Assembly (NCBI GenBank): GCA_016213105.1
Contig: JACRBN010000005.1
Coordinates: 186,001 to 250,000, forward strand
Origin: Chloroflexota bacterium
GTDB taxonomy: Bacteria > Chloroflexota > Anaerolineae > Anaerolineales > Villigracilaceae
DNA: 64,000 nt
Direction of reading: 5' to 3'
Part shown: positions 5,671 to 26,883 of the stretch, piece after piece
How positions within the stretch are numbered: the stretch's first letter is position 1
Layout: each line of letters opens with the position of its first letter
The notes under the pieces: model-generated
Databases searched by the model: none
Seen by the model: the letters and a program-made list of their open reading frames with translations, nothing else
What the model was told of the DNA's origin: nothing
Position numbers and translations under genes: made by a program

Positions 5671-6507
5671 TTAGTTTTTGTGTCCAGATGGAATGAGAGT
5701 CTGAGCGGGTTGAATTTGGGTAAGACATTGGGTGGCGAAGTTCGTGGGGGTCTTATAGCCCAACGAACTGTGAGGACGCAGTGTATTATAGTGCACTCGC
5801 CAATCTTCGATCACAACTTGGGCGTCCAGCAGGGATGAAAACCATTCGCGCTGCAAACATTCGTCACGGAACTTGTCATGGAAACTTTCGATAAAGCCGT
5901 TTTTCCAAGGCTGTCCTGGTGGAATAAAAGCGGGACCAACATTCTTTTCCGCCAACCAGGTTTGCACAGCCTCGGCGGTAAATTCGCTGCCATTATCGGA
6001 GCGGAGGAAAACGGGCGCACTACGTTTTTTCATGATCTCATCCAGAAATGCGATGACGTCTTTGGCAAGAATGGAAGTCGCAACCAGAATGTCGTGACAT
6101 TCTCGAGTAAACTCATCCAAAACACTCAAGGTCTTGAAGGGACGCCCATCTGCCAAACGGTCAAATAGGATATCGTACGTCCAGACATGATTGGGGTACT
6201 CGGCTTGTTGCGGTCGCGGAGTAGTGGTTTGATCCTTTTTGCGCGGTTTACGCGTGCGTTGTGCCCCAATTTTGAAGTTGTAGCGCTTCCAAAGCCGCCA
6301 GCAACGCCCAAAACCGATGCCGCTTTCAATCGCCACGCGGCGGTAGCCATAACGTGGATTGGCTCGGGCGGCAGTACGCATCTTTTCCAAAAACTGGATA
6401 TCCTGGGCGGGACGACGCAACACATACCTGCACACCGCACGGGAGATCCCGGTGTATCGACAGGCAGCTCGCTGGGAGAGTCCTTTGGTTTCTACTTGCT
6501 TGATCAT
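5671..6507 (-). CDS. IS3-family transposase OrfB (DDE integrase core)
   Basis: The catalytic half of the IS3 transposase, 278 aa from its own ATG. The rve-type core has D112 (TYDILFDR), D171 (LRSDNGSEF) and E207 (KNGFIESFHD). The 35-residue D-to-E spacing is the D,D(35)E signature. An N-terminal HTH_21-type region (RYGYRRVAIE) is present. It is most likely made as an OrfA-OrfB fusion by -1 frameshifting at the A8 run. The -1 frame upstream is open and reads KSLTTAERHAMIKQ into OrfB. All catalytic residues are present, so it may be active. Confidence 0.92.
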   Translation of the reverse strand: MIKQVETKGLSQRAACRYTGISRAVCRYVLRRPAQDIQFLEKMRTAARANPRYGYRRVAIESGIGFGRCWRLWKRYNFKIGAQRTRKPRKKDQTTTPRPQQAEYPNHVWTYDILFDRLADGRPFKTLSVLDEFTRECHDILVATSILAKDVIAFLDEIMKKRSAPVFLRSDNGSEFTAEAVQTWLAEKNVGPAFIPPGQPWKNGFIESFHDKFRDECLQREWFSSLLDAQVVIEDWRVHYNTLRPHSSLGYKTPTNFATQCLTQIQPAQTLIPSGHKN

Positions 6508-6527
6508 TGCATGTCGCTCCGCTGTTG

Positions 6528-6800
6528 TCAGGCTTTTTTTTGGAGAAACTCGCGAATGGCATCATTCGCCAGCAGTGCCTCGGCTAGCAAGCGTTTCAAT
6601 TTTGCGTTCTCGACCTCCAGCGCTTTCAGCCGTTTGGCATCCTCCACTTGTAAGCCGCCGTACTTGCGTTGCCAACGATAGTACGTGGCAGGGCTGATTT
6701 GCTCTTCACGGCATAAGTCCTCCACCTCTTTGCCTTTCGCCATTTCTTCCTCAGCTTTTCGCAAAAGCTTTACGATCTGTTTGGGCCTTCTTCGGTTCAT
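6528..6800 (-). CDS. IS3-family OrfA (HTH DNA-binding protein)
   Basis: A 90-aa protein with the Tnp_1-type helix-turn-helix (EEQISPATYYRWQRKYGGL) followed by a leucine-zipper-like coiled coil (LKALEVENAKLKRLLAEALL). This is the DNA-binding and dimerisation half of the IS3 transposase. Its last codons cross the run of eight A (6534-6541), giving QKKA-stop in frame 0 and OrfB in the -1 frame. Confidence 0.9.
   Translation of the reverse strand: MNRRRPKQIVKLLRKAEEEMAKGKEVEDLCREEQISPATYYRWQRKYGGLQVEDAKRLKALEVENAKLKRLLAEALLANDAIREFLQKKA
6534..6541 (-). promoter_or_regulatory. Programmed -1 frameshift site of the IS3 element
   Basis: Eight consecutive A on the coding strand, two codons before the OrfA stop. 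Slippage by -1 joins OrfA to the OrfB frame, which is open across the junction. This is the usual IS3 arrangement, and no downstream pseudoknot was analysed. Confidence 0.7.
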
Positions 6801-6869
6801 CAGAGTTTCGCTCCTTTTTGGGGTGCTCGACTCTCATTTTACTTGGTCACATTTTCCAGAGCAGGTCAC

Positions 6870-7523
6870 GACCAACTTTGGAAAAGCGCGGACGATCTGC
6901 GCGCGAACTCGGATTTGAAATCGAGTGAGTATTCAACACCTGTAATGGGGTTGATTTTCCTTAAGTTTGCCGACAACAAGTATCGCAAGCACGAAGATGA
7001 AATTTAGGCGGAATATCAGAAATTGAAGGGGACTCGCCGCGAGAAACCGTTGCATGAAATTGCCATTGAAAAGTGCGGATTTTATTTACCAGAACATGCC
7101 CGTTATAAATACCTGTTGAATTTGCCCGAAGAGAAGAACGTGGACAAGGCTTTGAAGGAAGCGATGTCTTCTATTGAAGAATATAAGGCGGAGTTGGCAG
7201 GAGTTTTGCCACAGGATGAATACTTCAAACTCACCCGCACTGACAAGACCATCCCGAGCCGTTTGCTGCGGAATTTTTCAAATATTCCCGATGACGCGGA
7301 CGGGGATCTGTTCGGGCAGATCTATGGATACTTCCTGAGTAACTTTGCTTTGGCAGAGGGACAGGGCGGCGGTGAATTCTTTACGCCACGTTCGGTGGTG
7401 CGCTTGATGGTGGAAATCATCGAACCGCATAAGGGGACAGTGTTTGACCCCGCCTGTGGTTCGGGCGGAATGTTCGTGCAGTCGGCGACTTTTGTGGAAA
7501 ACCATCGTAAGGCGACGGGCGCA
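6870..7523 (+). pseudogene. hsdM: Type I restriction-modification methyltransferase HsdM, truncated and interrupted
   Basis: The frame resuming right after the IS3 end reads DQLWKSADDLRANSD..., the N-terminal helical domain of HsdM (N6-adenine methyltransferase subunit of type I systems). An in-frame TAG at 7005-7007 breaks it. The frame continues to FFTPRSVVRLMVE and FDPACGSGGMF, the SAM-binding motif I region of class I DNA methyltransferases. The coding similarity ends near 7523, where a 101-bp dispersed repeat begins. The catalytic NPPF/NPPY motif and C-terminus are absent, so it is dead. Across the IS, ATG GAA ATG at 5653-5661 is in frame with it, suggesting the original start. No hsdS or hsdR was found. 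Confidence 0.85.
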
Positions 7524-7624
7524 GGATTGAAACGCGGAGAGTTAGGATGGGACAGCGGGTAGGGAGTTAAGCCTGTGACTTAAAACGTGGTACGTGAAAC
7601 TTCGCACCTCCGTCCCATCGCCTT
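7524..7624 (+). repeat. 101-bp dispersed repeat, copy 1
   Basis: Matches 29852-29952 over 101 bases with about seven differences by eye. Its ends contain a short inverted repeat (GATGGGAC near the left, GTCCCATC at the right). It overprints the 3' end of the hsdM remnant. The strand is arbitrary. Confidence 0.85.
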
Positions 7625-7803
7625 GGGGGAGAAGTAATGCATTTGAAGGAGTATGGGGGATATCCAGGGAGGGAGCATGCAAGCAGGGTTGTGAGGGCCT
7701 CCCGAACCGGGCACCCTCTATGCCGATAATTGTGATCGCTAATTGTTGTTCCCATAAAGACGTAGCTGTGTTTTGTAATCCGTGTTCAAAAATTTGACAT
7801 CAG

Positions 7804-7857
7804 CATTCTGTGCAAATATGCAATTTGATTGCGCTTTTGTACAGAATGCATTATACT
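7804..7857 (+). promoter_or_regulatory. Promoter with palindrome upstream of the AAA/DUF4143 gene
   Basis: TTGCGC (7829-7834), 17-bp spacer, TATACT (7852-7857). A perfect inverted pair CATTCTGT (7804-7811) / ACAGAATG (7841-7848) brackets and overlaps it, as expected for a repressor operator. The start codon is at 7899. A further TTGACA lies at 7794-7799. Operator function is inference. Confidence 0.5.
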
Positions 7858-7898
7858 AAAGATGCAGATGAGCAATATCCTGCAACTGGAGTGCGCTT

Positions 7899-9050
7899 AT
7901 GATCGAAAGAACTCTGACGAGCAAGCTAATTGCATTAGCGAGGAAATTCCAGGTTATTACCCTAACCGGGCCGCGCCAGTCTGGGAAAACCACTCTCGTC
8001 CGGGCCGCCTTTCCAACCTTGCCGTATGTCTCCTTGGAAGAGCCGGATATTCGCCAGATTGCGCTGACCGATGCACGCGGGTTCTTCGCGAATTTTCCTG
8101 CTGGCGCGATTCTTGATGAGGTCCAAAACACCCCCGACCTTTTTTCCTACATACAAAAGCTTGTTGATGATAACCGTCAGATTCGATTCGTTTTGACCGG
8201 TTCATCGAACTTTCTCTTGATGGAAAAAATTAGTCAGACACTGGCAGGACGCACTGCGGTTCTGCATTTGCTGCCGTTTTCCTTCGATGAATTGAAACCA
8301 GATTCAGAGCAGTACGAAACCCTGATATTTAAAGGTCAATATCCACGCATTTACGATCGCGACATTGCTCCGACCGATTTTTACCCAGCCTACATCCAAA
8401 CTTACGTTGAAAAAGATGTTCGCCTGATGAAAAATATCGGAGATATCAATGCTTTTATTCAATTCACCCGTCTATGCGCCGGGCGCGTCGGGCAACTGCT
8501 TAACTATGCTAGCCTGGCAAGTGACGCTGGAATCAGCCCAAACACAGCCAAAGCCTGGCTTTCTATTTTGGAGAGTTCCTATATCCTATATCGTCTGCAA
8601 CCCTATCATCGTAACTTTAATAAACGACTGGTCAAATCACCCAAACTCTATTTTTACGATACTGGCGTCGCTTGTTCACTACTTGGCATTCGTGAGGCAA
8701 GTCAGATTAACTTACACTATATGAAAGGTGCACTTTTTGAGAATCTGATCATTAACGAGTTTATTAAACGCTGCTTCCATCGTGGAGAGAATCGCCTGCC
8801 GTATTTTTGGCAGGACAATCATGGGAAAGAGATAGATTGTCTGTTGGTGAACGGCGAAAAAATCACGCCGGTTGAGATCAAATCCGGCAAAACAATGTCA
8901 ACCAGCTACTTTGATAACCTTCAATATTGGCAACAGCTGACGGCTGATTCGGAAGCTCAAGGCTATGTGGTCTATGGAGGAGAACAGTCAATAAAAAACA
9001 GATTTGGCGCATTGATCAGTTGGCGGCAGGTGGAGAATGTTCCAGATTGA
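7899..9050 (+). CDS. AAA ATPase with DUF4143 C-terminal domain
   Basis: A 383-aa protein of the AAA_14/DUF4143 family, which is widespread, often mobile and mostly uncharacterised. Walker A is GPRQSGKTT (24-32) and Walker B AILDEVQ (70-76), followed by the sensor-like VLTGSSNFLL. The C-terminal DUF4143 part ends with a PD-(D/E)XK-like signature, EIDCLLVNGE...VEIKSGKT around residues 309-330. That suggests a nuclease-type fold, though cleavage is unproven for the family. It appears full length. It sits beside the broken hsdM and repeats, on its own promoter and before a strong terminator, so it behaves like an independent cargo gene. Defence or toxin-antitoxin-like roles are speculative. Confidence 0.88.
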   Translation: MIERTLTSKLIALARKFQVITLTGPRQSGKTTLVRAAFPTLPYVSLEEPDIRQIALTDARGFFANFPAGAILDEVQNTPDLFSYIQKLVDDNRQIRFVLTGSSNFLLMEKISQTLAGRTAVLHLLPFSFDELKPDSEQYETLIFKGQYPRIYDRDIAPTDFYPAYIQTYVEKDVRLMKNIGDINAFIQFTRLCAGRVGQLLNYASLASDAGISPNTAKAWLSILESSYILYRLQPYHRNFNKRLVKSPKLYFYDTGVACSLLGIREASQINLHYMKGALFENLIINEFIKRCFHRGENRLPYFWQDNHGKEIDCLLVNGEKITPVEIKSGKTMSTSYFDNLQYWQQLTADSEAQGYVVYGGEQSIKNRFGALISWRQVENVPD

Positions 9051-9610: not shown

Positions 9611-10195
9611 CTACGAGACCATGACCTTGAGCAGTTCTTTTAATTTTTTGCCCTGCAGATATTCCCTGGGGAATTGATTTTCCAGCATCAAATACGCAAA
9701 ACCATGCGCCAAACTCCACAGTTTAATGGCAATCACTTCCACGTTGCCAGAGGGCAGTTGACCTTTGCCCTGGCAAAATGTGATGATCTCTTCGAACAGG
9801 GCAATGCTTTTCTGGGAAACCTCTACGAAGTCCGGGTGGTCGCGTTCTTCTTCCAGCGCGCCTGAAAACATCAGTTTGAATTTGGAGGGATTATCCAACG
9901 CAAATTGCAGATATGCCCAAGCAATTTCAGAGATGATATTGGGGGATGAGCGTTTCGATTTTTCAAAAGTGTTTAGTAACACTTGATGCAGTTGTTCATG
10001 CCCGGCGGTTGAAATTGCGGCGAGTAGCGCTTGTTTATTGGAGAAATGATTATAGGGGGCGGCGTGGCTGACGCCTATCTTTTTGGCGACACTGCGCAGG
10101 CTCAATCCTTCCACCCCTTGTTCTGCAAGGATTGCCAGCCCGGCGGAGATCAGCGTTTCTTTTAAATTTCCATGATGATAGGTTTTCGCTTTCAT
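9611..10195 (-). CDS. TetR-family transcriptional regulator
   Basis: A 194-aa regulator. The N-terminal TetR helix-turn-helix is clear: TYHHGNLKETLISAG, then GLSLRSVAKKIGVSHAAPYNHFSNKQALLAA. The C-terminal ligand domain (WAYLQFALDNPSKFKLMFSG) is of the TetR_C type found in YHHG-type regulators. I choose ATG 10195 because a -10-like TAAAAT (10208-10203 on the minus strand) sits only 7 bases upstream. That implies a leaderless mRNA, with TTTACA 16 bp further up. It is divergent from the glycan operon, and two operator-like palindromes lie between them, so it probably represses both itself and that operon. The inducer is unknown. Confidence 0.9.
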   Translation of the reverse strand: MKAKTYHHGNLKETLISAGLAILAEQGVEGLSLRSVAKKIGVSHAAPYNHFSNKQALLAAISTAGHEQLHQVLLNTFEKSKRSSPNIISEIAWAYLQFALDNPSKFKLMFSGALEEERDHPDFVEVSQKSIALFEEIITFCQGKGQLPSGNVEVIAIKLWSLAHGFAYLMLENQFPREYLQGKKLKELLKVMVS

Positions 10196-10202
10196 GAAAA
10201 AA

Positions 10203-10262
10203 ATTTTACCACAAATGTTGACAGTGTAAACATCGGGACTTATAATATTGACACTGTCAACA
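10203..10262 (+). promoter_or_regulatory. Divergent promoter with two TetR-type operator palindromes
   Basis: Rightward promoter TTGACA (10218-10223), exactly 17 bp, TATAAT (10241-10246): perfect consensus. Site O1 GTTGACA-G-TGTAAAC (10217-10231) covers the -35. Site O2 ATTGACA-C-TGTCAAC (10247-10261) abuts the -10 and start point. Their centres are 30 bp apart, about three helical turns. TGTTGACAGTGT (10216-10227) and ACACTGTCAACA (10251-10262) are exact inverted repeats. Leftward, TTTACA and TAAAAT (10208-10203) could drive tetR. Binding by the adjacent TetR protein is inferred. Confidence 0.8.
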
Positions 10263-10290
10263 TCCATTTCATTTTCTCAAGCAGGAAACT

Positions 10291-11274
10291 ATGTCCGAAA
10301 GCATTGTCATGGGTTTGGATGGCGGAAATACCAGTTCCCGGGTTGTGCTGGCAAACTCCGATGGGAAGGTTCTCGGGTACGGCAAAGCCGGTCCCGCAAG
10401 CGTAGATGGAGTCAGTATCGAAACAGCGGCGCAGAATATTCGTGCAGCGGTGGACGCCGCATGGGAAAACGCCGGATTCGAGTCCCGCTCTGTCCGCGCA
10501 TCGTTTTTGGGCATGGCAGGCGTGGTCTCGGAGCAGGATAGAAATATGATCAGGAATATCGTTTCGGATTTGCAGGTATCTGATCCTGATCACATTGGCA
10601 TTGACCATGATATCCGCATCGCACTGACGGGCGGGCTGGGCAACCTGCCCGGAATCGCACTCATCGTCGGGACGGGCTGCTCCTGCTACGGGCGTAATCA
10701 GTCGGGGGAGTCTGTTCGGGTTGGCGGTTGGGGTCATTTGCTGGATGATGGTGGCAGTGGTTATTTTCTTGGTCTGGAAGCGTTAAAAGCGATCGTCCGT
10801 TCTGCAGATGGAAGAACAGGTACAACATCCCTGATGCCTGTTATCCTGGAGCATTTTGGAATTAGCGATGTTCAGGAAATCATGCGTCAGGTTTATGTGA
10901 AACACGCCAAAAAAACCGACATTGCCGCTTTGGCTCCATTGGTTTTGGTTGAAGCGCAAAAGGGGGATGAGTGCGCCGATCAAATCCTTTTGGCAGGATT
11001 TCAGGAGCTGGCAACGCTGGTCAAAGTGGCAGATGAACGGCTCCAACTGGACGAGAAGCGGCTGACCGTTACCGGGGGCTTGGCTCACTCTGTCAGTTTT
11101 TTCAAGGATGGGTTGTATCGCGCCATCCGCTCACAAATTCCCGATATTCAGATTCAGGAACCGATTCTGCCGCCCGTTCTCGGCGCAGTCTTGCTCGCGC
11201 TGGAGATGATTGACCCGCGCCCATCGGCTGAATTCATCCCCATACTCCTGCAGAGTGGTCAACACATCAAGTAA
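10291..11274 (+). CDS. BadF/BadG/GlcNAc-kinase family sugar kinase
   Basis: A 327-aa ASKHA-fold kinase. The phosphate-1 motif VMGLDGGNTSSRVVL (6-20), a GTGCSCYG segment (family phosphate-2-like, near 129-136) and the GGWGHLLDDGGSGY..G motif match the N-acetylglucosamine-kinase-like BadF/BadG family. The predicted reaction is ATP-dependent phosphorylation of an (amino)sugar, probably released by the downstream glycosidases. BcrAD/BadF reductase activators carry cysteine ligands for an Fe-S cluster, which I do not see in the expected place. It is first in the operon, with an AGGAAA ribosome site and the strong regulated promoter 30-70 bases upstream. The exact sugar is unknown; GlcNAc or mannosamine are reasonable guesses. 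Confidence 0.8.
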   Translation: MSESIVMGLDGGNTSSRVVLANSDGKVLGYGKAGPASVDGVSIETAAQNIRAAVDAAWENAGFESRSVRASFLGMAGVVSEQDRNMIRNIVSDLQVSDPDHIGIDHDIRIALTGGLGNLPGIALIVGTGCSCYGRNQSGESVRVGGWGHLLDDGGSGYFLGLEALKAIVRSADGRTGTTSLMPVILEHFGISDVQEIMRQVYVKHAKKTDIAALAPLVLVEAQKGDECADQILLAGFQELATLVKVADERLQLDEKRLTVTGGLAHSVSFFKDGLYRAIRSQIPDIQIQEPILPPVLGAVLLALEMIDPRPSAEFIPILLQSGQHIK

Positions 11275-11290
11275 AAACGGAAGTGAAGAA

Positions 11291-13138
11291 ATGCCTGACA
11301 ACCAGTGGCGAAAAACACCGCAAACCTTAATGCCATCCATACATCCAGGTTCCATTGGGAATGCGTATGATATTTATCCCACGCACAATATTGGAATGGG
11401 GAAAATTTCCATCGGCTACGACGCGCTCGTAGAGTCGCTTCAAGCGAATCCAGTGATCGTAGTGGATGGATTTCCCGGTGTGCTTTGGGAGAATTTCCGC
11501 GCCTTGTTTTCTGATGCCTTACAACGGGCTGGACTGCGCGCAAACTTTGTAGATGTTGGGCTGGCAATGCTTCAGCCAGAAAAAATTAACGGGGTCATTG
11601 AACAGTTCACGGGTGGGGATGATCCGCTTTTCGGGTTTCGTTTCCGCGGAGAACTCGGTCAATTCTTTGACCCGCAGATTCTCCAGTCGCTGAAACCTGA
11701 TCCTGCTTTTTCGATCAACATCCTCTACGGCTGCGGCGCGGCGCTGGCGGGCTGGCAGGGTGCGTTAGTGTATCTGGATGTGCCGAAAAATGAAATCCAG
11801 TTTCGCGCGCGGGCTTTGTCGGTGAAAAATTTGGGCGCAGCAGAAGCGTTGCCGCCCGGCATGGCGTACAAACGCAGTTATTTCGTTGACTGGGTGGTGG
11901 CGAACAAACACAAGGCAAAGTTACTCCCTGCCATGGATTGGATGGTGGACGAACAAAACCCCGACATGCCCGCGATCGTTTCAGGCGCCGACCTGCGCCG
12001 TGGGCTGGCGCAGCTTGCAGGGAGTTGTTTCCGCGTGCGCCCATGGTTCGAGCCGGGACCGTGGGGCGGGCAGTGGATAAAGGAGAAGATTCCGACGCTG
12101 GCGCAGGATGTCCCCAACTATGCCTGGTCTTTTGAGTTGATCGCGCCAGAAAACGGACTGGTCTTTGAATCGGATGGCCACCTGCTGGAAGTATCTTTCG
12201 ATAGCCTGATGTTCCAGGAATACCGGGCGGTGCTGGGCGAAGCGGCGGAGAAATTCAAGTACGAATTCCCGATCCGTTATGATTTTTTGGACACGGTGGA
12301 TGGCGGCAATCTTTCGGTGCAGGTTCACCCACGCCCGGAGTATATTCGTAAAAATTTTGGCGAGACGTTTACGCAGGACGAGTGCTATTACATTTTGGAT
12401 TGCGTGCCAGGGGCAAAGGTCAATTTAGGGTTTCAGGAGGGAATCGCGGTAGATGACTTCAAACAGGTTTTGCGGGACTCCGCCGAGAAGGCAATCCATG
12501 TTGAGATGGAAAAATATGTTCAGGGGTTGCCTGTCCAAAAACATGACCTGTTCCTGATTCCAAATGGCACAATTCATGGTTCAGGAGCTGGGACGATGGT
12601 GCTGGAAATTTCTGCCACGCCCTATATTTTTACCTTCAAAATGTACGACTGGCTAAGGCTTGGGCTGGACAGCAACCCACGCACGCTGAACATCGAGCGG
12701 GCATTTGCCAACTTGTATTTTGATCGCCAGGGCGGGCGGATTCAAAGTGAGTTCGTCTCGAAGCCCGCTACCTTGTTTGAAGAATCGCAAAATGGGGACT
12801 ATCAGCGCGTGGTTCATTTACCCACCCACGTAGCCCATTTCTATGATGTGCATCGGCTGGAGTTCAACGGCTCAATGGTTGTTCAGACCGAAAACTCGTG
12901 CCATGTGTTGAGTCTCGTCGAAGGGGAAGCGGTGATTCTTGAAACGGCGGACAACCAGCGGGTGGAGTTCCACTATGCGGAAACATTCGTTGTCCCGGCG
13001 GCAGCCAAATCCTACCGGCTGGTCAGCCCTACGGGAAAAGACATCATGGTGGTCAAGACTTATATCAAACCACTGGAGCAGTGGATCCCCGGCGTTACAG
13101 CGGAACAACTGGTTGGGAGGCAGCCCCGAAATGCGTAA
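11291..13138 (+). CDS. Long class I mannose-6-phosphate isomerase
   Basis: A 615-aa protein. The C-terminal half is a type I phosphomannose isomerase, a zinc cupin that interconverts mannose-6-P and fructose-6-P. SVQVHPRPEY near residue 343 and IPNGTIHGSG near 422 carry the metal-ligand histidines, followed by the conserved MVLEIS..PYIFTFKMYDW stretch. The first ~300 residues are extra compared with the ~390-aa enzyme and resemble a nucleoside-kinase-like domain (VIVVDGFPGVLWENF). No convincing P-loop is seen there, so it may be regulatory or structural. Start ATG 11291 follows GAAGTGAAG. An upstream in-frame GTG would run into the kinase gene. It connects mannosidase products to glycolysis and overlaps the next gene by 8 bases. 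Confidence 0.85.
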   Translation: MPDNQWRKTPQTLMPSIHPGSIGNAYDIYPTHNIGMGKISIGYDALVESLQANPVIVVDGFPGVLWENFRALFSDALQRAGLRANFVDVGLAMLQPEKINGVIEQFTGGDDPLFGFRFRGELGQFFDPQILQSLKPDPAFSINILYGCGAALAGWQGALVYLDVPKNEIQFRARALSVKNLGAAEALPPGMAYKRSYFVDWVVANKHKAKLLPAMDWMVDEQNPDMPAIVSGADLRRGLAQLAGSCFRVRPWFEPGPWGGQWIKEKIPTLAQDVPNYAWSFELIAPENGLVFESDGHLLEVSFDSLMFQEYRAVLGEAAEKFKYEFPIRYDFLDTVDGGNLSVQVHPRPEYIRKNFGETFTQDECYYILDCVPGAKVNLGFQEGIAVDDFKQVLRDSAEKAIHVEMEKYVQGLPVQKHDLFLIPNGTIHGSGAGTMVLEISATPYIFTFKMYDWLRLGLDSNPRTLNIERAFANLYFDRQGGRIQSEFVSKPATLFEESQNGDYQRVVHLPTHVAHFYDVHRLEFNGSMVVQTENSCHVLSLVEGEAVILETADNQRVEFHYAETFVVPAAAKSYRLVSPTGKDIMVVKTYIKPLEQWIPGVTAEQLVGRQPRNA

Positions 13139-15710
13139 ATGGAAAGTGTATCTGTTGCACCACACCCACTTTGATATTGGGTACACCCACACCCAGGAAG
13201 ATGTTTTTAAAATTCAAATGCGCAATCTGGAAGAAGCGCTGGCGTTGGTTGAGCAAAACAAACACAGAACAGAATCTGCGCGCTTCCGCTGGAGTCCGGA
13301 GGTCACTTTCAATGTGATGAAGTGGCTGGGGCGGGCAAGTCAACCGGAGATAGAGCGCTTCGTGGAAATGGTGCGCGATGGCTATATTGGGTTGGATGGG
13401 TTTTATGCTGGAATGCTCACCGGGCTTTGCAGACCCGAAGAACTGGCACAGGTGTTTGCGCAAAAGAATCAATTGGAAAGGCTGACCGGTGTTGCGATCG
13501 ATTCAGCGATGATCACGGATATCCCCGGTTGGAATTGGGGACTGGTCACGGCGCTGGCAGAAAGCGGGATCAAGTATCTGTCATCAGGACCTAATGGCGG
13601 GGATAGGATCGGGTACACGCTGACAGACTGGGGCGATAAGCCGTTCTACTGGGTTTCGCCTTCGGGGAAGGAGCGTGTTTTGCTGTGGGTTCATGGCAAG
13701 GGGTATGCGTGGTTCCACACCGACTTTGATTACGAAAAGAAAATAAAAAATAAATTGACGCCAGGGCGCATTCGCCGCTACCTGCGCGCGCTGGAACGCT
13801 CAGGCTACCCATATGATTCCATCATCATCCGCTACACCATCGGCGCGGATAATGGTCCTGCGGATAAACAGTTGAGCCAGATCGTGGAAGATTGGAACGC
13901 CAGCATTGACGATATCAAATTGGTGATTTCAACCACTTCAAAAGCGATGGCGGAATTTGAAGCGGATCACGGTAAGCAAATCCCAGAATATCGCGGCGAT
14001 TTCACGCCCTATTGGGAGGATGGCGCATTTTCAACCTCCCGTGAGACCGCCATTGCGCGTGAAGCCAGCGAACATCTGACCCAGGCGCAGACACTTGCGG
14101 TGCTGACAGGCGCGCAAACAGATCGCGAACTGGAAAGCCGAGCTTGGGAAAATGTTTTGTTGTTCAATGAGCATACCTGGGGCGCGCACAACTCCATCAG
14201 CCGCCCAGACCATCCATTTGCGCAAAGCCAGTGGGTATGGAAACGTGAGCGCGCCATCAGAGCAGATGTAGATGTGCGCGGGTTATTGAAAGCGGCAGCA
14301 AGCGGTGATATCGAGGCGGCGCGTTTTTATGTGGACGAACTTTCACCCGCTACACAACTTGTTTCTGAAGATCAGCAGGTCACTGTTTACAACACGCACA
14401 GTTGGAGTGTCTCGCGCGTGGTGGAAGTGAACAACCTCCGCGACCGTGTGCTGGATTCTGACGATACACCTATGCCTTCGCAAAGATTGTCGAACGGCAG
14501 GCTCGCATTCTACGCCAAAGATCTGCCGCCGATGGGCAGCCGCCAGTATCGCTTTGTAGATGGCGCTCCTGCGCAGGGTGAGAACGGCTGTCGGGTGGAA
14601 AATTTTCAGTTGAGCAGCGATCAGGTAACAGTCAAGATAGATGCACAGACGGGTGCGATCCAAAGTTTCATCTGCGCTGGCGTGGAATATGTCAACCAAA
14701 ACAGCGCGGACAGATTCAACGGCTACGTGCTGGTTCCGGGCAAGATGCCCCTGCTCGCACAGCGCGAACATTCTGCTGATGGCGTGAAAATTGAGATCCT
14801 TGATTCAGGTCCACTGCGTTGTACCATTCGCGTCAGCCGAAAAGTGGCGCGGACACTTGCCTACACCAGCGAAATCAGCCTGGACGCTTTTTCCAACGAA
14901 GTGCGCATCAACAATGTTTTGGATCGTCCGGTGTCGCGTTGGAAAGAGGGGATTCATTTCTCCTACCCCTTCAACCTGCCGCAGGGCGCGGTGCGCTATG
15001 ACTGTGCGTGGGGAACTGTAAAATTGGATGCTGACCAACTCGCGGGTGCAAATCGTAATTTCATCACTGCGTCACGCTGGGTGGATGTATCGGATGAACG
15101 AGCGGGGATGTGCTGTACCCTGCTCGACGCGCCGATATTCAAAAGTGGACCGCTCACGCGCGATCCGTGGCGTTGGGGTCCGCCGAAACTGTGCGGTTGG
15201 TTAACCGATACAACTTGCAACGGTACGATCTATTCTTATGTCATGAATAATTACTGGCAGACCAATTACAAAGCCGACCAGCCTGGGAAAACTTTATTCC
15301 GCTATGTATTTAGACCACACGGCAAGTTCTCTCCAGTAGAGAATTATCGCGCGGCATTAGAGCATGCTCAGCCGCCGCTTTTGACATTTGGCGGCAAAAC
15401 AACGGTCACAAAAATTCCCATGCCCGTGCACGAAGATGTTGTGATTAGTTCAATGGATATTTCCGAAGGTAAATTGCAGATGCGGTTCTTCAATGCCGGA
15501 GACACTGACTTGGAAACGGCGCTCGTCTTTGAAAATACTGAATTGCAGTCTTCTCAACTACAGATCGTTAGCGCCGGAAAAAGTGAAAACCTGGTTGGAA
15601 ATCAGTTGAAATTGGCGGCATCAGAAACGCTGCTGGTTGCCATTTCGCATCAGGAGCTATCGTCAAAGATGAGGATCGATGAGACGAATCATCTCGGTGA
15701 AGAATGCTGA
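13131..15710 (+). CDS. GH38-like alpha-mannosidase (divergent)
   Basis: An 859-aa protein. The N-terminus LHHTHFDIGYTHTQ carries the HxHxD zinc-binding triad of family 38 (H11, H13, D15). TDIPGWNWGL near residue 129 occupies the place of the catalytic nucleophile segment. The C-terminal part looks like the beta-rich domains of GH38 enzymes. The HTHFDIG variant, instead of HTHWDREW, places it in a divergent GH38/DUF5054-like branch, so mannose specificity is not certain. No signal peptide is seen, which suggests an intracellular enzyme acting on imported oligosaccharides. The start ATG 13131 overlaps the isomerase stop and has GGGAGG upstream. Confidence 0.8.
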   Translation: MRKWKVYLLHHTHFDIGYTHTQEDVFKIQMRNLEEALALVEQNKHRTESARFRWSPEVTFNVMKWLGRASQPEIERFVEMVRDGYIGLDGFYAGMLTGLCRPEELAQVFAQKNQLERLTGVAIDSAMITDIPGWNWGLVTALAESGIKYLSSGPNGGDRIGYTLTDWGDKPFYWVSPSGKERVLLWVHGKGYAWFHTDFDYEKKIKNKLTPGRIRRYLRALERSGYPYDSIIIRYTIGADNGPADKQLSQIVEDWNASIDDIKLVISTTSKAMAEFEADHGKQIPEYRGDFTPYWEDGAFSTSRETAIAREASEHLTQAQTLAVLTGAQTDRELESRAWENVLLFNEHTWGAHNSISRPDHPFAQSQWVWKRERAIRADVDVRGLLKAAASGDIEAARFYVDELSPATQLVSEDQQVTVYNTHSWSVSRVVEVNNLRDRVLDSDDTPMPSQRLSNGRLAFYAKDLPPMGSRQYRFVDGAPAQGENGCRVENFQLSSDQVTVKIDAQTGAIQSFICAGVEYVNQNSADRFNGYVLVPGKMPLLAQREHSADGVKIEILDSGPLRCTIRVSRKVARTLAYTSEISLDAFSNEVRINNVLDRPVSRWKEGIHFSYPFNLPQGAVRYDCAWGTVKLDADQLAGANRNFITASRWVDVSDERAGMCCTLLDAPIFKSGPLTRDPWRWGPPKLCGWLTDTTCNGTIYSYVMNNYWQTNYKADQPGKTLFRYVFRPHGKFSPVENYRAALEHAQPPLLTFGGKTTVTKIPMPVHEDVVISSMDISEGKLQMRFFNAGDTDLETALVFENTELQSSQLQIVSAGKSENLVGNQLKLAASETLLVAISHQELSSKMRIDETNHLGEEC

Positions 15711-15712
15711 AT

Positions 15713-15875
15713 TTTAAAGATAGGGCGAGGTCCATAACCGCATCCATGACCCTTGGGGAAAAGGTGTCCCAGATGGAGTATGAAACCAGTCCAAGCTTGG
15801 CGTTGAGTGGGCTGGAGTTGCGGCGGTGTTCTCCCCATTGATTCGGTCTGGCAACCATGTTCTATACGACTTTGG
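15713..15875 (+). pseudogene. Remnant of a GH3 beta-glycosidase N-terminus
   Basis: Between two intact glycosidase genes. One frame reads FKDRARSITASMTLGEKVSQMEYE, close to the first helix of GH3 enzymes (SRMTLEEKVSQM). A frame change then gives VEWAGVAAVFSP, like the following GVA.VFPQAI segment. The order fits GH3, but about 20 residues between the two are missing, and stops follow. No start signal or downstream GH3 sequence remains. Confidence 0.5.
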
Positions 15876-15911
15876 AGTTTCGCCATTCAGTCTGAATAAG
15901 GAAATCATTTT

Positions 15912-18773
15912 ATGAAGATCACCCTTCTGAAAACAAATCATGTGAAAAATCCGTTGGGATTTGCGCTTGATAAACCAGTTTTTTCATGGATTGTCGAGGA
16001 TACTCAAAATAAAAAGCAAATATCTGTACAAGTAGTGATTTCAAAGGATGACGGGTTCACTCATATCCTTTTCGATAGCGGCAAGGTGGCTGGTTCTAAG
16101 ATCAATGGCGTTGCTTATTGCCCAACCATAAACTTAGCGCCAAGGGCACGATATTTCTGGAAAGTCAGGGTTTGGGGGGAAACTGAAAGCGCAGAAAGTG
16201 AAACCGGCTGGTTTGAGACCGCCAAAATGGACGAACCTTGGCAGGCGCAGTGGATCACGCCTGAATTTCCAGACAACCAGATCCATCCATATCTGTTCAA
16301 GGACTTCGTGATCCCTGCAAAAGTGATTTCAGCGCGAGCCTATATCTGCGGGTTGGGACTGTACCATTTTGAGTTAAATGGTCAAAAAGTCGGCGACGAG
16401 CATTTGACACCGTACCTGAACGCTTATGACCAGTGGATCCAGTACCAGACCTACGATATCACTGAACAGTTGAAAACGGGTTCCAATCTCATCGTGGTGA
16501 TGCTCGGCGACGGCTGGTACAAGGGACGCTACGGTTTGCAGGATTATCCCAACGAGCCAAAGCCTTACGGCGAGCAGTTCGCGCTGATTTGCGAGTTGCA
16601 CATTGAACTTGAAAATGGCAGGCGGCTGGTGCTCGTCACGGACAAAACCTGGAGCGCCGCGCCCGCCCCGGTGCTTGCCAGCGATATCTATGACGGCGAA
16701 ACCTATGATGCGCGCATCGCCAAGCCAAATGGAAAAGGTAAATTCTCTGGCGTGAAAAACATCGCGCTGGATACCAAGAAACTGCAAGCCCGGCGCTCTT
16801 TGCCGGTAAAAGTCAACGAAAAGATTAAGCCCATTGCCCTGATCCAGACCCCGGCGGGGGAGACCGTGCTCGATATGGGGCAAAACATGACCGGGTGGCT
16901 CCGCTTCAAGACCAGCGCCCCATCCGGGACGCGTATCCATCTGCAATTTGGCGAAGTGTTGAACAACGGAAATTTCTATCGTGACAACCTGCGCACCGCC
17001 AAAGCGGAATATATCTACATCGCCGATGGGACTGAAACCGTTGCCGAGCCATATTTCACCTTTTTCGGGTTCCGTTATGTCAAAGTTTCAGGCTGGGTGG
17101 GCAACCTGAACCCGGACGATTTCACCGGCTGTGTGGTGTACTCGCAAATGGACATCACCGGGCAGATCGAAACATCCAACGCGAAGGTCAATCAATTGTT
17201 CAGGAATGCGCTCTGGGGGCAGAAGGGTAACTTCCTCGACGTGCCCACCGACTGCCCGCAGCGCGACGAGCGCCTTGGCTGGACGGGCGACGCGCAGATG
17301 TTTTCCGGCACCGCCTGTTTCAACATGGATTCGGCGGCGTTCTTTGCCAAGTTCGGGTATGACATGGGCAGGGAGCAGGCGAAATTCGGCGGCATGGTTC
17401 CGTGGGTGGTTCCCACGGTGAGCATGACCGGCGGCGGTTCCAGCGCCTGGGGGGACGCTGCCGCCATCATCCCGTGGAATGTGTACGAGTTTTACGGCGA
17501 TAGGTCCATTTTGGAACAGCAATTCGAGAGCATGTGCGCCTGGGTGAAATACATCCGGAAAGCCGATGACGCAGCAGGCGGCAAACGCCTGTGGACAACC
17601 GGTTTTCACTTTGGCGACTGGCTGGCGCTCGATGGGAACGATCCCAACTCTGCGGCGGGCGGCACCCCTGAAGATTTCATTTCATCCGCCTATTATTTTT
17701 ACTCGACGCGGCTGGTAGCGCGCGCGGCGGTGGTGCTGGGGAAGAACGAACAGGCAGCCCGCTACGGGGCGCTTGCCGAAGAGATCAGAGCCGCCATCCA
17801 GAAGGAATATTTCACCGCCACTGGGCGGTTGGCAATCGGTACGCAGACTGGACTGGTGCTGGCGTTGTTCATGGAACTGGCTCCCGAAGCATTCCGCGCG
17901 CGGGTCATCGCTGACCTGATCGCCCGCCTGCGGAAGGATAAAGTCCACCTGCGGACGGGGTTTGTCGGCACACCCTACCTGTGCCGCGCGCTGTCGAACA
18001 ACGGCGCAAATGAACTGGCGTACCAACTCCTGCTGAACGAAGATTACCCATCCTGGCTGTATGCGGTCAACCTGGGCGCAACCACCATCTGGGAGCGCTG
18101 GAATTCGCTCCAGCCGGATGGCTCGTTCAGTTCGGTTGAGATGAATTCTTTCAATCATTACGCCTACGGCTCCATCGTCGAGTGGATGTACCGCGATATG
18201 TGCGGTCTGAACCCATCATCCGGCGATGACTCGATGCCAGGGTTCCGCCGCGCGCGCATCGCGCCCAAACCCGATAAATCCATGCAGTGGGCGAAGGCAA
18301 GTTACCGCTCCGCCGCCGGTCTGTTCGAGAGCGGCTGGAAAATCGGGGATGATGGCAGGTTGTCATTCGAGTTCAGCATCCCGTTCAATGTTGAAGTGCA
18401 GGTGATTTTGCCGGACGCGAAGGTGGGGGAGATTGTTATCAATGGGCAAAAATCCAAACAGGGTATCCAGCAAGGCACGGAAGTGGTTTTGCAACTGGAC
18501 TCCGGTCACTACCAGGTCGAATATTCGCCCACCCGAAGTTATATCGAAACGCTCAGCACCTACGTGCCAGCCGTGAAAATTCTCCAGAATAAAATGGCAA
18601 AACGCGCCTTGGTGCGTTTCATCCCGATCATCGCGGTGATCACCGATGAAATGGTTGCCGCGATTGGCAATGACAGCATCCGTGATCTTGCTGCCACGCC
18701 CTATCTGAAATTGAGCGAAAAGCAGTTGTATGAAGTGGATCGGGTGTTGAGCAAGTTCCCCATCAAAAAATAA
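15912..18773 (+). CDS. GH78 alpha-L-rhamnosidase
   Basis: A 953-aa inverting glycosidase that removes terminal alpha-L-rhamnose. Domain order: N-terminal beta-sandwich with FSWIVE and ARYFWKVRVWGE, a carbohydrate-binding-like domain with the ISARAYICGLGLYHFELNG motif, then the (alpha/alpha)6 barrel. The barrel has the family signature DCPQRDERLGWTGD (about 446-459) and TTIWERWNS (about 724-732), carrying the acidic catalytic residues. There is no signal peptide, so it is probably cytoplasmic. The last ~70 residues form an extra helical module shared with the next gene's product (see 18555). It lies in the glycan operon, 26 bases before the GH2 gene. Confidence 0.93.
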   Translation: MKITLLKTNHVKNPLGFALDKPVFSWIVEDTQNKKQISVQVVISKDDGFTHILFDSGKVAGSKINGVAYCPTINLAPRARYFWKVRVWGETESAESETGWFETAKMDEPWQAQWITPEFPDNQIHPYLFKDFVIPAKVISARAYICGLGLYHFELNGQKVGDEHLTPYLNAYDQWIQYQTYDITEQLKTGSNLIVVMLGDGWYKGRYGLQDYPNEPKPYGEQFALICELHIELENGRRLVLVTDKTWSAAPAPVLASDIYDGETYDARIAKPNGKGKFSGVKNIALDTKKLQARRSLPVKVNEKIKPIALIQTPAGETVLDMGQNMTGWLRFKTSAPSGTRIHLQFGEVLNNGNFYRDNLRTAKAEYIYIADGTETVAEPYFTFFGFRYVKVSGWVGNLNPDDFTGCVVYSQMDITGQIETSNAKVNQLFRNALWGQKGNFLDVPTDCPQRDERLGWTGDAQMFSGTACFNMDSAAFFAKFGYDMGREQAKFGGMVPWVVPTVSMTGGGSSAWGDAAAIIPWNVYEFYGDRSILEQQFESMCAWVKYIRKADDAAGGKRLWTTGFHFGDWLALDGNDPNSAAGGTPEDFISSAYYFYSTRLVARAAVVLGKNEQAARYGALAEEIRAAIQKEYFTATGRLAIGTQTGLVLALFMELAPEAFRARVIADLIARLRKDKVHLRTGFVGTPYLCRALSNNGANELAYQLLLNEDYPSWLYAVNLGATTIWERWNSLQPDGSFSSVEMNSFNHYAYGSIVEWMYRDMCGLNPSSGDDSMPGFRRARIAPKPDKSMQWAKASYRSAAGLFESGWKIGDDGRLSFEFSIPFNVEVQVILPDAKVGEIVINGQKSKQGIQQGTEVVLQLDSGHYQVEYSPTRSYIETLSTYVPAVKILQNKMAKRALVRFIPIIAVITDEMVAAIGNDSIRDLAATPYLKLSEKQLYEVDRVLSKFPIKK
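18555..18765 (+). other. Helical C-terminal module shared with the GH2 protein, copy 1
   Basis: Encodes STYVPA, ILQNKMAKR, FIPIIAVITDEMVAAI, SIRDLA and KLSEKQLYEVDRVLSKF. It aligns along its length with the module in the next protein. The pattern (residual-helix, FIP core, SIR.L, L..KL..ID..L) suggests a small helical bundle. A similar helical module is, from memory, found at the C-terminus of other bacterial polysaccharide enzymes. Confidence 0.75.
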
Positions 18774-18799
18774 GATTTCGGAACCGCAAAAGGAACCTT

Positions 18800-21700
18800 A
18801 TGCCTGTCACTCCAAAGTTCATTGACCGAAACGATTTTTCAACCGAAACCGGTTCACTGAGACCTGGCGAGTCCGATTTTCGGAACGAGATCTGCCTGAA
18901 CGGGCGCTGGGATTTCCAGCCAGTGAGCCTGCCAGATGGTTTTGTGACGGGTGAAACCATCCCCGAACTGCCGCTGCCCCAGGATGGTCAATGGGAGAGC
19001 GTGAAACTGAAGGTGCCATCCCCCTGGAACATCAACGGCTTTGTGGATGCCGATGGTATTCCCGGCGGCGATTTTGTCTGCTATCCTAGTTATCCCGAGC
19101 GCTGGAAACAGGTCAAGATGGGCTGGATGAGACGCACGCTCCATGTGCCGGAAGATTGGGAAGGGCAGTACATCCTGCTCCACTTCGAAGCGGTGTGCGG
19201 TCACTGCCAGGTTTACATTGATGGGCAAAAGGTGGGCGAGCATTTTGACAACAGTATGCAGCGGCAATATCCGTTGGATGCGTTCGTCACCCCCGGAAAA
19301 AACCACGAGTTATGGGTGGGCGTTCGCGCGCCGGAACTTTTCAGCGTAAACAGCGATTCCGGTAAATTTACCTACCCAACCGGCTCTTTTTTCAACATGA
19401 ATACCGCCGGCATCTGGCAGGATGTTTATTTGCTGGCTGTTCCCAAAGTGCATGTCAAAGATGTTTTTGTGCAACCAGATCTGTCTGCCGATCAACTAAG
19501 GGTTCAGGTGACGATCGAAAACCGCAGCGAGCAACCAGCCAGTTTAACCGTCGATGGCGTTGTCAAAGCGCTTAAACCGTTCTCGTTTCCGGATGATGGT
19601 ATTCAGGTTCTGCCTCATCATGACCTGGAAGATGTCCCTGTCCTTGAATTTCCCAGCGGGCACATAGATATTGCCCCGAATGCAGAAGCCGTCATCACAC
19701 TCAAAGCAACTGTATCTGGAAGACTTCGCCAATGGGATACGGAAAATCCCAACCTGTACGCGGCGCTTGTCACACTGGCGCAGGATGGAAAAACAACCGA
19801 CTGCAGATATACCCGCTTCGGCTGGCGGGAGTTCAGGATCAAGAATGGTGATTTTTACCTGAATGACTGCAAGATCCAGGTCAAAGCCGACTCATGGCAC
19901 TTTATGGGCATTCCGCAACTGACGCGGCGGTACGCTTTTGCGTGGTATAAGGCGCTTAAAGATGCCGGTGGGAATGGGGTTCGTCTCCACGCCATGCCCT
20001 ATCCCACTTTTTACCTGGAAGTTGCCGACGAGATGGGGATATGCGTCCTGGATGAAAGCGCCATCTGGGCAAGCCACACCGCATTCAACTTCGATGAGCC
20101 GGTCACCTGGGAGCGTTTTTCTGCGCACGTGGCGCGCCTGGTGCGGCGGGATCGCAACTACCCATCGGTGATGGGCTGGAGCGTGGAAAATGAAGTGTGG
20201 ATGGCGCTTGAACAGCCGTTCCAATCCCAGGAAAACATCGCGCGGGTGGGGGAGCATATCTGCAAACTGATGGACATCGTTCGGGAACTTGACCCCACGC
20301 GGGACTGGATCAGCGCGGACGGCTCCCGCGATTGGGATGGGCGCTTCCCCACCAGCGTTCTCCATTACGAGAACAAGGACAACTACAATGGGATAAAGAG
20401 CAAAGCCGGGAAACCCGTCGGTGTGGGCGAATGTACCATCGGATATTATGGCACGCCGAAACATGCCGCGGCGTTTGGCGGTGACCTGGCTTACCGGAGC
20501 ATCGCAGACCGGATGAATGGGGTTGCCATCGAGTCTTATGGTCAATTGAAAGCCCAACTGCTGGCAGGTTTTAGTTACCTGAGCGTGTTCAACCTTGCTT
20601 GGTACAGTTTGAAACCCTTACCGCTCGGGCACGCCTACCCCGAAAATGCCCCAACGCTTGCGGATGGCATTTACTTTGGCGAGTATCAAGAAGGGAAACC
20701 GGGCGTACAGCCTGAGCGGCTGGGTCCGTATTGCACCACGCTCAACCCCGGATACGAATCCAACCTGCCGCTGTATATCCCGTGGTCTATGTATGATGCC
20801 ATCAAGGAAACATATTCTTCTGATGCTCCGTCACCTCATGAAGCGGAACGCGAATCCCCGCCGCAAAAACCATTGCCAGTGATCGAACAGTCGGAGCCGG
20901 TGATTTTCTTTGGTAAAACGGACGGCGTTCACTATCAAGGCTTGAAAGCCGGCGGGATTCAGTTCAGTGACAAAGGCGCTGGAATTATCTACGCAGACCT
21001 GGCAACGATATCCTTTATCCAAAAATGGCGCCTGCAAAGAAAAGTAAACGCGCTTAAAAAGCGTGGGGGCACGATCTTCTTATCTGGGATAACGCCCGCA
21101 TCTGAGCATTTGTTGGAAAAACTGCTCGGCGGGAAGATCGAGATCGTCGAGCGGGAAGCGTCTTCGTTGGTCTTTGCCGGGGAGTACGCCAATACAGACC
21201 CGCTGGTGGATCATTTCTGTTTGCAAGAATTGTATTTCTCTGAAGATGAAGATGCGGTCATCCAGCGGTACGGCATTCGCAGTGATGGCAAAGCGCTGCT
21301 GAAATCTTGCAGTTGCGACTGGCGCATGTGGAATTATCGTAACGAGACATCGAAAACCGCCGCGCTCTATAGGAGCGAAAAAGAAATGCCCCCCGCCGAC
21401 GCGCTGGTAAAGGTCACCCTGGGCAAAGCAAGCGTGTTCCTATGCACGATCGAGATGCGGGAAAATCGTTCCACATCCGAGCGGAACAGGAAAAACCTGT
21501 GGAAAAAACTCATGCAAGCCACAGGCGCTCGAACAGACGCCAACGCTGGAAAGGATGCGGCTTTCAGCACCTATACACCCGCTGGGCAAATTCTCAAAAA
21601 CCCGCAGGCAAAAGCCACTGTGCGGCGTTTTATTCCCATGATTGACATGCTGACGGATGACATGATCGCCGAGATCAGCGCGTTCAGTATCCGCGAACTT

Positions 21701-22357
21701 GTCAAAATGTATGGCAGGTTGCTGATGTTGAGCAGTAAAAAACTGGATCAAATTGACCAGGCGCTCAGTGAAATCGTTCTGGAGGAGGGGAATCCCATAA
21801 ATACCGTTGTGCTGGAAAGGAATCAGATTACCCGGGTGCTGGCTGCCGGATTTTTTGCGGGGAGTGACCCCGTCAGCATGTTGGATGAAGACTTTTTGGG
21901 CGGGGAAAGCAGCGCGGCTCCCGCACCGGGAGATCAAATTGTCCGGGGTAACTTTTCCACCCAGTGGCAGGTTGCAACATTCAGCGCGGATGGATTTCAC
22001 TTCAACGAAATGACGTTTCAAGATTCAAAAGAGTATTCCGCGAGTTATATGAGTTTTTATCTCACCAGCCCCCGGCGGCTGGATAACCTGCTGATCGAGC
22101 CCAACGTTCCCCAACTCTATTTGAATGTGGAAACGGGCTGCGGTCTGCGGGTCTGGCTCAACGGGAAAGAAATTTTCACCAGTGGGCAGATTCCGGAAAA
22201 ACCGGTCAATATGAAGGTTCCGTTGCTGCTCCAAAAAGGAAATAACCATGTCTTGATGAAACTCGTAAATGCCAACACGGATTATTCTGTAAAAGTGTTT
22301 TTATCATCATCCCATGCTGATTTTGTTAAACTACTCACTGGAGCGGTTGAGCGGTAA
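18800..22357 (+). CDS. GH2-family-type glycosidase, multidomain
   Basis: A 1185-aa protein. The N-terminus (LNGRWDFQP..., KVPSPWNINGF, MRRTLHVPEDW) is the jelly-roll sugar-binding domain of GH2. The TIM barrel follows, with acid/base Glu in WSVENEVWM (about 460-468) and a probable nucleophile Glu in PVGVGECTIGY near 541. After ~residue 680 comes a long extra region without a recognised family, then the ~70-aa helical module shared with the rhamnosidase (about 922-995), then a beta-sandwich-like C-terminal domain (LYLNVETGCGLRVWLNGKEIF). No signal peptide is seen. It could be a beta-galactosidase, beta-glucuronidase or beta-mannosidase, and the sequence alone does not decide. Located between the rhamnosidase and the transporter. 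Confidence 0.82.
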   Translation: MPVTPKFIDRNDFSTETGSLRPGESDFRNEICLNGRWDFQPVSLPDGFVTGETIPELPLPQDGQWESVKLKVPSPWNINGFVDADGIPGGDFVCYPSYPERWKQVKMGWMRRTLHVPEDWEGQYILLHFEAVCGHCQVYIDGQKVGEHFDNSMQRQYPLDAFVTPGKNHELWVGVRAPELFSVNSDSGKFTYPTGSFFNMNTAGIWQDVYLLAVPKVHVKDVFVQPDLSADQLRVQVTIENRSEQPASLTVDGVVKALKPFSFPDDGIQVLPHHDLEDVPVLEFPSGHIDIAPNAEAVITLKATVSGRLRQWDTENPNLYAALVTLAQDGKTTDCRYTRFGWREFRIKNGDFYLNDCKIQVKADSWHFMGIPQLTRRYAFAWYKALKDAGGNGVRLHAMPYPTFYLEVADEMGICVLDESAIWASHTAFNFDEPVTWERFSAHVARLVRRDRNYPSVMGWSVENEVWMALEQPFQSQENIARVGEHICKLMDIVRELDPTRDWISADGSRDWDGRFPTSVLHYENKDNYNGIKSKAGKPVGVGECTIGYYGTPKHAAAFGGDLAYRSIADRMNGVAIESYGQLKAQLLAGFSYLSVFNLAWYSLKPLPLGHAYPENAPTLADGIYFGEYQEGKPGVQPERLGPYCTTLNPGYESNLPLYIPWSMYDAIKETYSSDAPSPHEAERESPPQKPLPVIEQSEPVIFFGKTDGVHYQGLKAGGIQFSDKGAGIIYADLATISFIQKWRLQRKVNALKKRGGTIFLSGITPASEHLLEKLLGGKIEIVEREASSLVFAGEYANTDPLVDHFCLQELYFSEDEDAVIQRYGIRSDGKALLKSCSCDWRMWNYRNETSKTAALYRSEKEMPPADALVKVTLGKASVFLCTIEMRENRSTSERNRKNLWKKLMQATGARTDANAGKDAAFSTYTPAGQILKNPQAKATVRRFIPMIDMLTDDMIAEISAFSIRELVKMYGRLLMLSSKKLDQIDQALSEIVLEEGNPINTVVLERNQITRVLAAGFFAGSDPVSMLDEDFLGGESSAAPAPGDQIVRGNFSTQWQVATFSADGFHFNEMTFQDSKEYSASYMSFYLTSPRRLDNLLIEPNVPQLYLNVETGCGLRVWLNGKEIFTSGQIPEKPVNMKVPLLLQKGNNHVLMKLVNANTDYSVKVFLSSSHADFVKLLTGAVER
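21562..21780 (+). other. Helical module shared with the rhamnosidase, copy 2
   Basis: Encodes STYTPA, ILKNPQAKA, FIPMIDMLTDDMIAEI, SIRELV and LSSKKLDQIDQALSEI, aligning with the module at 18555-18765. Here it is internal, followed by another domain, whereas in the rhamnosidase it is terminal. Confidence 0.75.
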
Positions 22358-22414
22358 AAAGGCAAATAATAAAACGATCAGCGACTTCCAAAAACTTCAA
22401 AAAGGAAAACCGCA

Positions 22415-23800: not shown

Positions 23801-23819
23801 CCCATCACGAAGAAGAATC

Positions 23820-26795: not shown

Positions 26796-26840
26796 AAAAA
26801 GCCAACAAGCGCTCCGAAACTGGGGCGCTTGTTGGCTTGC
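26796..26840 (+). terminator. Terminator at the end of the glycan operon
   Basis: GCCAACAAGCGC (26801-26812) pairs perfectly with GCGCTTGTTGGC (26825-26836). Three more pairs (one G-U) reduce the loop to 6 bases. Seven A before the left arm give a T-run on the minus strand, while the plus strand tail is only TTGCATATCT. It lies 30 bases after the GH38 stop. Confidence 0.75.
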
Positions 26841-26883
26841 ATATCTGTTCATTGACAGTTTCCCGAATCCGGAATATGTTTCA

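Follow-up and report, generated by a model that had tools for sequence, protein, structure and literature searches.

A predicted TetR-type switch with paired operators that carry the -35 boxes of divergent promoters beside a glycan operon in a Chloroflexota bacterium

Known TetR-type modules and the layout of the locus

The operators tetO1 and tetO2 are 19 bp long each and are separated by a gap of 11 bp. In the tetR-tetA module of Tn10 (class B), the repressor gene is divergent from its target, two operators lie in the short gap between the genes together with overlapping promoters, and one operator shuts both genes (PMC3037858, PMC3511530). The available portion of PMC3037858 describes the other operator as acting mainly on one gene and gives no sign of cooperativity. 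According to the accessible text of PMC3511530, TetR-family regulators of Streptomyces repressed a divergently oriented gene lying less than 200 bp away in 5/5 tested cases.

The window analysed here, a stretch of 64,000 nucleotides, contains a locus that by its sequence is built like a Tn10-type module without being a member (Table 1). Divergent genes and two operators lying over both promoters were found, but the target is a glycan operon in place of an efflux pump, and the repressor scored 41.6 bits against the tetracycline repressor model NF010319, whose cut-off is 265. Unlike in Tn10, the operator half-site holds the -35 consensus and the repressor carries PF13305; the Tn10 tetO2 given in the accessible part of PMC11686294 is unrelated in sequence to the window operators.

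The repressor itself contains both a TetR_N helix-turn-helix (HTH; PF00440, 44.6 bits) and a TetR-type C-terminal domain (PF13305, 51.4 bits), each scoring over its cut-off, and an all-helical TetR fold with a recognition helix at residues 45-50 was predicted (pLDDT 89). The nearest solved relative was 3on2, a regulator of Rhodococcus RHA1 (E 3.1e-36 with the family profile and 2.9e-23 alone), which was also the best solved structural match (Z 18.9, rmsd 2.5 Å, 181 residues aligned). The two proteins have SHAAP..HF in common in the HTH and are 26% identical in the structural alignment, with SKHF in 3on2 where the window protein has YNHF. QacR and CprB share the TetR fold too; they place two dimers on one longer site, whereas the window has two separate 19-bp palindromes.

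The repressor was furthermore 44-52% identical to the TetR regulators of aldolase operons in the same bacterial family, for which no name in print was found in a literature search. Many of these share the operator pair, the spacing and the promoter geometry with the window; they differ from it by Ala or Ser at residue 49, C at base 3 of the half-site and a divergent class II aldolase gene. Of the 30 family-search loci for which an upstream region was available, 27 had an aldolase-like divergent frame (exceptions: the window, L037 and L043), the aldolase being identified by family search (PF00596) only for the gene of the paralogue described below and by likeness for the others.

Table 1. Positions of the predicted control elements, the repressor gene and the glycan operon in the window
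Feature	Position	Strand	Remark
TetR-family repressor	9611-10195	-	194 aa, PF00440 + PF13305
Asn49 codon	10049-10051	-	recognition helix Y48-N49-H50
tetR promoter TTTACA-N16-TAAAAT	10203-10230	-	10/12, TG before -10; TTTACA 10230-10225, TAAAAT 10208-10203; start predicted ~10196
Operator O1, ATGTTGACAGTGTAAACAT	10215-10233		19-bp palindrome, centre 10224; covers -35 of both divergent promoters
Operon promoter TTGACA-N17-TATAAT	10218-10246	+	12/12; TTGACA 10218-10223, TATAAT 10241-10246; predicted start ~10253
Operator O2, ATATTGACACTGTCAACAT	10245-10263		19-bp palindrome, centre 10254; covers predicted operon start point
BadF/BadG-type sugar kinase (N-acetylglucosamine-kinase-like; BadF/NagK-like)	10291-11274	+	first operon gene
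Class I mannose-6-phosphate isomerase-like	11291-13138	+	weak matches, below curated cut-offs
GH38 alpha-mannosidase-like	13131-15710	+	
GH78 alpha-L-rhamnosidase	15912-18773	+	
GH2 glycoside hydrolase	18800-22357	+	
GPH/MFS_2 sugar:cation symporter	22415-23800	+	
GH38 alpha-mannosidase / mannosylglycerate-hydrolase-like	23820-26768	+	last operon gene
18-bp perfect hairpin, possible terminator	26799-26838		after last gene

The gap between the ATG of tetR (10195) and that of the kinase gene (10291) was found to be 95 bp. A preliminary description of this region had claimed an exact consensus promoter, two palindromes 30 bp apart at its -35 box and its start point, and outer 12-mers forming inverted repeats, and this observation is real. 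The operon promoter matches the sigma-70 type (TTGACA, 16-18 bp, TATAAT) at every position and is the only 12/12 site with a 17-nt spacer in the window. In each palindrome 8/9 positions are paired around an odd centre, the two centres lie 30 bp apart with 11 bp between the arms, and 10215-10226 is the exact reverse complement of 10252-10263. O2 starts on the final AT of the operon -10 box (2-bp overlap); the region had been given as 10203-10262, which contains the sites except that O2 extends to 10263. Palindromes of this quality numbered 21 in the window against a mean of 8.65 in first-order Markov simulations. O1 and O2 were the only pair of palindromes 15-60 bp apart with at least 15/19 identical bases in the window, and no such pair was obtained in 100 simulated 64-kb sequences.

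The preliminary description did not contain the divergent tetR promoter, the -35 box of which also lies within O1. Only 7 nt separate the end of its -10 box from the ATG, and the tetR transcript would be near leaderless, with its predicted start at the ATG. Among the loci compared, a -10-like hexamer (at least 4/6) was present 16-18 nt from the near operator in 41/74, against about 8/74 by our own estimate of chance at equal base composition, and in 28 of those 41 an ATG followed 4-9 nt past the hexamer.

Operator and promoter geometry among relatives

Homologues of the repressor at E 1e-30 were present in 48 of 150 family genomes, and 123 non-duplicate homologous loci were collected from family, class and phylum searches; a scan of named genomes gave two weak alphaproteobacterial loci. 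The repressor of the window sits on a long branch, and its place in the tree is unsure. An operator core with at least 9/10 matches was found upstream in 77/123 loci, among which L087, L184, L188 and L211 look like chance matches. A strong operator was not found in 46/123 loci, which are mostly distant homologues and include L034 and L108, having little or no upstream DNA. The close homologues L037 (52%, G046) and L043 (51%, G056) were also without an upstream operator; these two are possibly co-transcribed or re-wired. The sites had earlier been assigned to the adjacent TetR protein, and the palindrome shared upstream by its homologues, together with the divergent gene across a 95-bp gap, argues for this assignment; binding of a dimer is thus far a prediction from sequence.

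When 152 family genomes were searched for an operator pair, with every gap from 2 to 32 allowed, three genomes were returned, the own genome included, all with a gap of 17 nt, and the reversed control returned none. In 32/77 strong-operator loci a partner scoring at least 8 was present at a distance of 30 bp, the next distance being 33 bp (n = 5). The best second site lay at 30 bp in 43 loci, and an outward -10 box at a 17-bp spacer matched at least 5/6 positions in 43/43 of them, the whole promoter scoring 10-12/12; in this count a high operator score largely implies the -35 match, and the -10 match is independent of the scoring. Perfect 12/12 promoters were found in 10 of the 43 loci, the window among them.

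This recurring layout bears on the idea that the TetR protein represses its own gene only, through O1, with O2 a relic and the operon controlled elsewhere or constitutive. Some Streptomyces TetR-family proteins more than 200 bp away do bind the intergenic region without controlling the neighbour, as the available text of PMC3511530 describes. In the window, however, the genes are 95 bp apart, O1 lies on the operon -35 box and O2 on the start point, and the layout with an outward promoter recurs in all 43 pair loci, which makes this idea hardly credible.

In this TetR clade the half-site includes TTKACA, and the -35 box is therefore part of the operator. Since the -10 box shares its last AT with O2, the 17-bp spacer of the promoter sets the distance of 30 bp. 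The reasoning that the promoter is perfect because it has to drive a big operon was not supported, as TTGACA belongs to the repressor half-site and relatives facing a class II aldolase gene also have 12/12 promoters.

Among the loci of genus g9 (L027, L029, L032, L035, L046, L048 and others), the divergent promoters overlap, each -35 box lying by the -10 box of the other promoter. In several of them TTGACA-17-TATAAT is directed toward tetR, and the second operator is just a half-site.

Cooperative binding had been raised as a possibility in the preliminary description. In one form of this idea, two dimers would sit on O1 and O2 as a dimer of dimers or face to face, with the 30 bp kept for their contact. 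The frequency of this distance among strong-operator loci is consistent with it, QacR and CprB bind cooperatively (available text of PMC4150764), and a DarR-DNA complex with dimer-of-dimers binding was among the structural neighbours. The promoter spacer, however, already accounts for the 30 bp, and this argues against a distance kept for protein contact. Pairs in distant homologues were found at 27, 28, 33, 41 and 48 bp (distances checked: 26, 27, 28, 33, 41 and 48), some of which, such as those of L052 and L102, look spurious; several g9 relatives keep merely a half-site as the second site; and in Tn10, TetR occupies the two operators independently of each other, as far as the accessible parts of PMC11686294 and PMC3037858 describe it. 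We therefore regard cooperativity as unlikely. In 10/17 listed cases of distant homologues the best promoter kept its -35 box in the near operator, and judged from these sequences a -35 box inside the operator is a more constant feature than the 30-bp distance.

Residue 49 of the recognition helix and base 3 of the half-site

The closest paralogue in the own genome (C28:58435, 48% identity to the repressor) has the operators ATCTTGACGATGTAAAGAT and ATCTTGACAGCGTCAAGAT, exactly 30 bp apart and of C-type, beside a class II aldolase gene. The promoter of this locus, TTGACG-17-TATAAT, points outward, and the aldolase strand further on also encodes a class III aminotransferase, an FGGY kinase and an MFS transporter. 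The main difference between the window operators and those of the paralogue was found at base 3 of the half-site.

Base 3 was excluded from the operator score, and each locus was assigned the base present in most of its half-sites. G at base 3 accompanied Arg or Asn at residue 49 in 16/16 rows, among them the window with Asn49 and G, and C accompanied Ala or Ser in 53/54 rows, the remaining one being undecided; with His the base was mixed. Column 49 was the sole aligned column without a misassigned row in a test of 70 rows, which omitted L185 and L188 (very long branches; the helix motif of L188 was misparsed) as well as L087 and L131 (undecided base). Single half-sites departed from the rule, with one G in the Ala-type L106 and A or T in L038, L045, L084 and L094.

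Kinship, as the tree indicates, accounts for much of this correlation, with only three independent switches. On the tree the residue class needs at least 3 changes when His rows are left out, and the base at least 5 when these rows and one misparsed row are counted; both pairs on well-supported branches agreed, being too few for a sign test to reach significance. The best contrast was L133 (Ser, C) amid its sisters L121, L128 and L130 (Arg, G). L111, an Arg-type locus of the same bacterial family, has weaker G-type sites that are also 30 bp apart, and in the own genome a distant TetR with a Tyr-Arg-Tyr helix has G in its TGTTTACA half-site. An extra genome search for independent switches (47 genomes, 8 matched) returned only genomes already matched.

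A plasmid set, comprising 20 of 152 matching records, was then compared with a prediction set beforehand. Its helix types were 4 Ala, 8 Arg, 4 Lys, 3 His and 1 Asn, and the loci with strong sites (at least 9/10) numbered 4 for Ala, 1 for Arg, 2 for Lys and 3 for His. The Arg type had G in 2/2 half-sites as predicted, a strong site being present in 1/8 Arg loci, and the Ala type had 6 C and 4 G half-sites, so that the prediction was borne out only in part. For Lys and His no prediction had been made; G was found in 4/4 Lys half-sites, and the His half-sites had mostly C with some G and T.

In CprB, F48, which precedes the His in Y47-F48-H49, contacts bases according to the available text of PMC4150764, and residue 49 was equated with it through the YxH motif; in an alignment it corresponds to residue 43 of TetR class A. 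One amino acid of the recognition helix thus appears, from the sequences compared, to set one letter of the operator. We give an even chance to the fuller proposal, in which the clade reads the -35 box through the TTGACA of its half-site and residue 49 (Arg/Asn versus Ala/Ser) sets one base, G versus C, 7 bp from the centre, letting duplicated repressors reach new operons, the present glycan operon being one example, without cross-talk while the strong promoter is kept. The layout is a known one (tetO-like), and what is new, as far as our literature searches tell, is the residue/base rule together with an operator in which the -35 box itself is read: the operator strings matched only texts on herpesvirus transcription and chromatin loops, and the sole 'tetr' match in the accessible text on rhamnose regulons (PMC3870299) was the name of an RT-PCR kit.

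The same data speak to whether another protein, for example the paralogue, occupies the palindromes, with the repressors cross-talking. The operators of the two loci differ mainly at base 3, and one half of O2 has A at this position, as such cross-talk would allow. The correlation with residue 49 nevertheless gives the G-type sites to the local protein, and the paralogue owns a C-type pair; occupation by another protein is accordingly very improbable.

Reach of the switch and the glycan operon

The core TTKACANTGTMAA was found in the own 5.39-Mb genome at O1 and O2 only. A genome search for a regulon, proposed in the preliminary description, thus ended at one locus, and the confinement of the core points to a local switch. 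When as many as 3 of 17 bases were allowed to mismatch, 42 places were matched against 35 for the reversed control, the operator pair of the paralogue at C28 being among them. Three further places had 2 mismatches; two of these fell within open frames, and the remaining one was upstream of a different TetR gene, a distant one. A large regulon was rejected on these counts, the core motif having no other site in the genome.

The operon had been described as a single unit of about 16.5 kb (10291-26768), which is plausible given seven genes on the same strand and a strong hairpin after the last of them (folding energy of the stretch -35.8 kcal/mol, z -7). A clear U-run downstream of the hairpin on the plus strand, as an intrinsic terminator needs, was missing. 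A run of seven A was observed on the 5' side, so that the hairpin would be a better terminator for the minus strand than for the plus strand. A second good promoter, TTGACA-17-TATGTT, was observed at 26852-26880; it precedes a MarR-type gene (26929) and suggests that this gene lies beyond the end of the glycan operon.

Within the operon, a 201-nt gap was observed at 15711-15911. It contains two frames (MTLGEKVSQM..., ...VLYDFGVSPF) that we take to resemble pieces of a GH3 glycosidase, and it is likely a decayed gene. The surroundings of the repressor at 5671-9050 were island-like, presumably with an IS3-like transposase, a type I DNA methyltransferase subunit-like fragment and an ATPase. The same-genus genome G014 has the paralogue and lacks the repressor of the window at E 1e-30.

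The operon kinase was matched at E 1e-40 in 3/152 family genomes, own genome included, and the other two matches had only 32-34% identity. The orthologue with 70% identity, L034 (1501-1881, G090), is cut by the contig end before its HTH and operator, and consequently a true orthologue covering the complete module was not among the loci. The operon kinase had no match in G090 at E 1e-40, and the L034 repressor may control something else.

Taken together, it is very probable that the control region is a local, autoregulated switch of TetR type, in which O1 shuts both genes, O2 shuts the operon and a glycan-derived ligand releases them. The repressor, which is related to the repressors of aldolase operons in its bacterial family, would bind O1 and O2 as a dimer. 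As TTGACA or TTTACA is contained in the half-site, each operator would carry a -35 box; a dimer on O1 would cover both -35 boxes and keep operon and tetR shut, and a dimer on O2 would cover the start point and block mainly or only the operon. From the genes of the operon, the ligand that frees the DNA of repressor is probably a breakdown product of a mannose- or rhamnose-containing glycan. Because the O1 region is common to both promoters, polymerase would use one promoter at a time, and the induced operon promoter may itself lower repressor synthesis. Asn49 in place of Ala or Ser, together with G in place of C, would keep the repressor off the operators of the paralogue.

This arrangement suggests a way for the same DNA to serve as both a perfect promoter and a repressor site, and duplication of such a repressor would bring along a ready-made strong, repressible promoter. 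If the one-residue/one-base rule is true, it would offer orthogonal repressor/promoter pairs for synthetic biology. By its position, a TetR-family protein is here placed over sugar and glycan breakdown.
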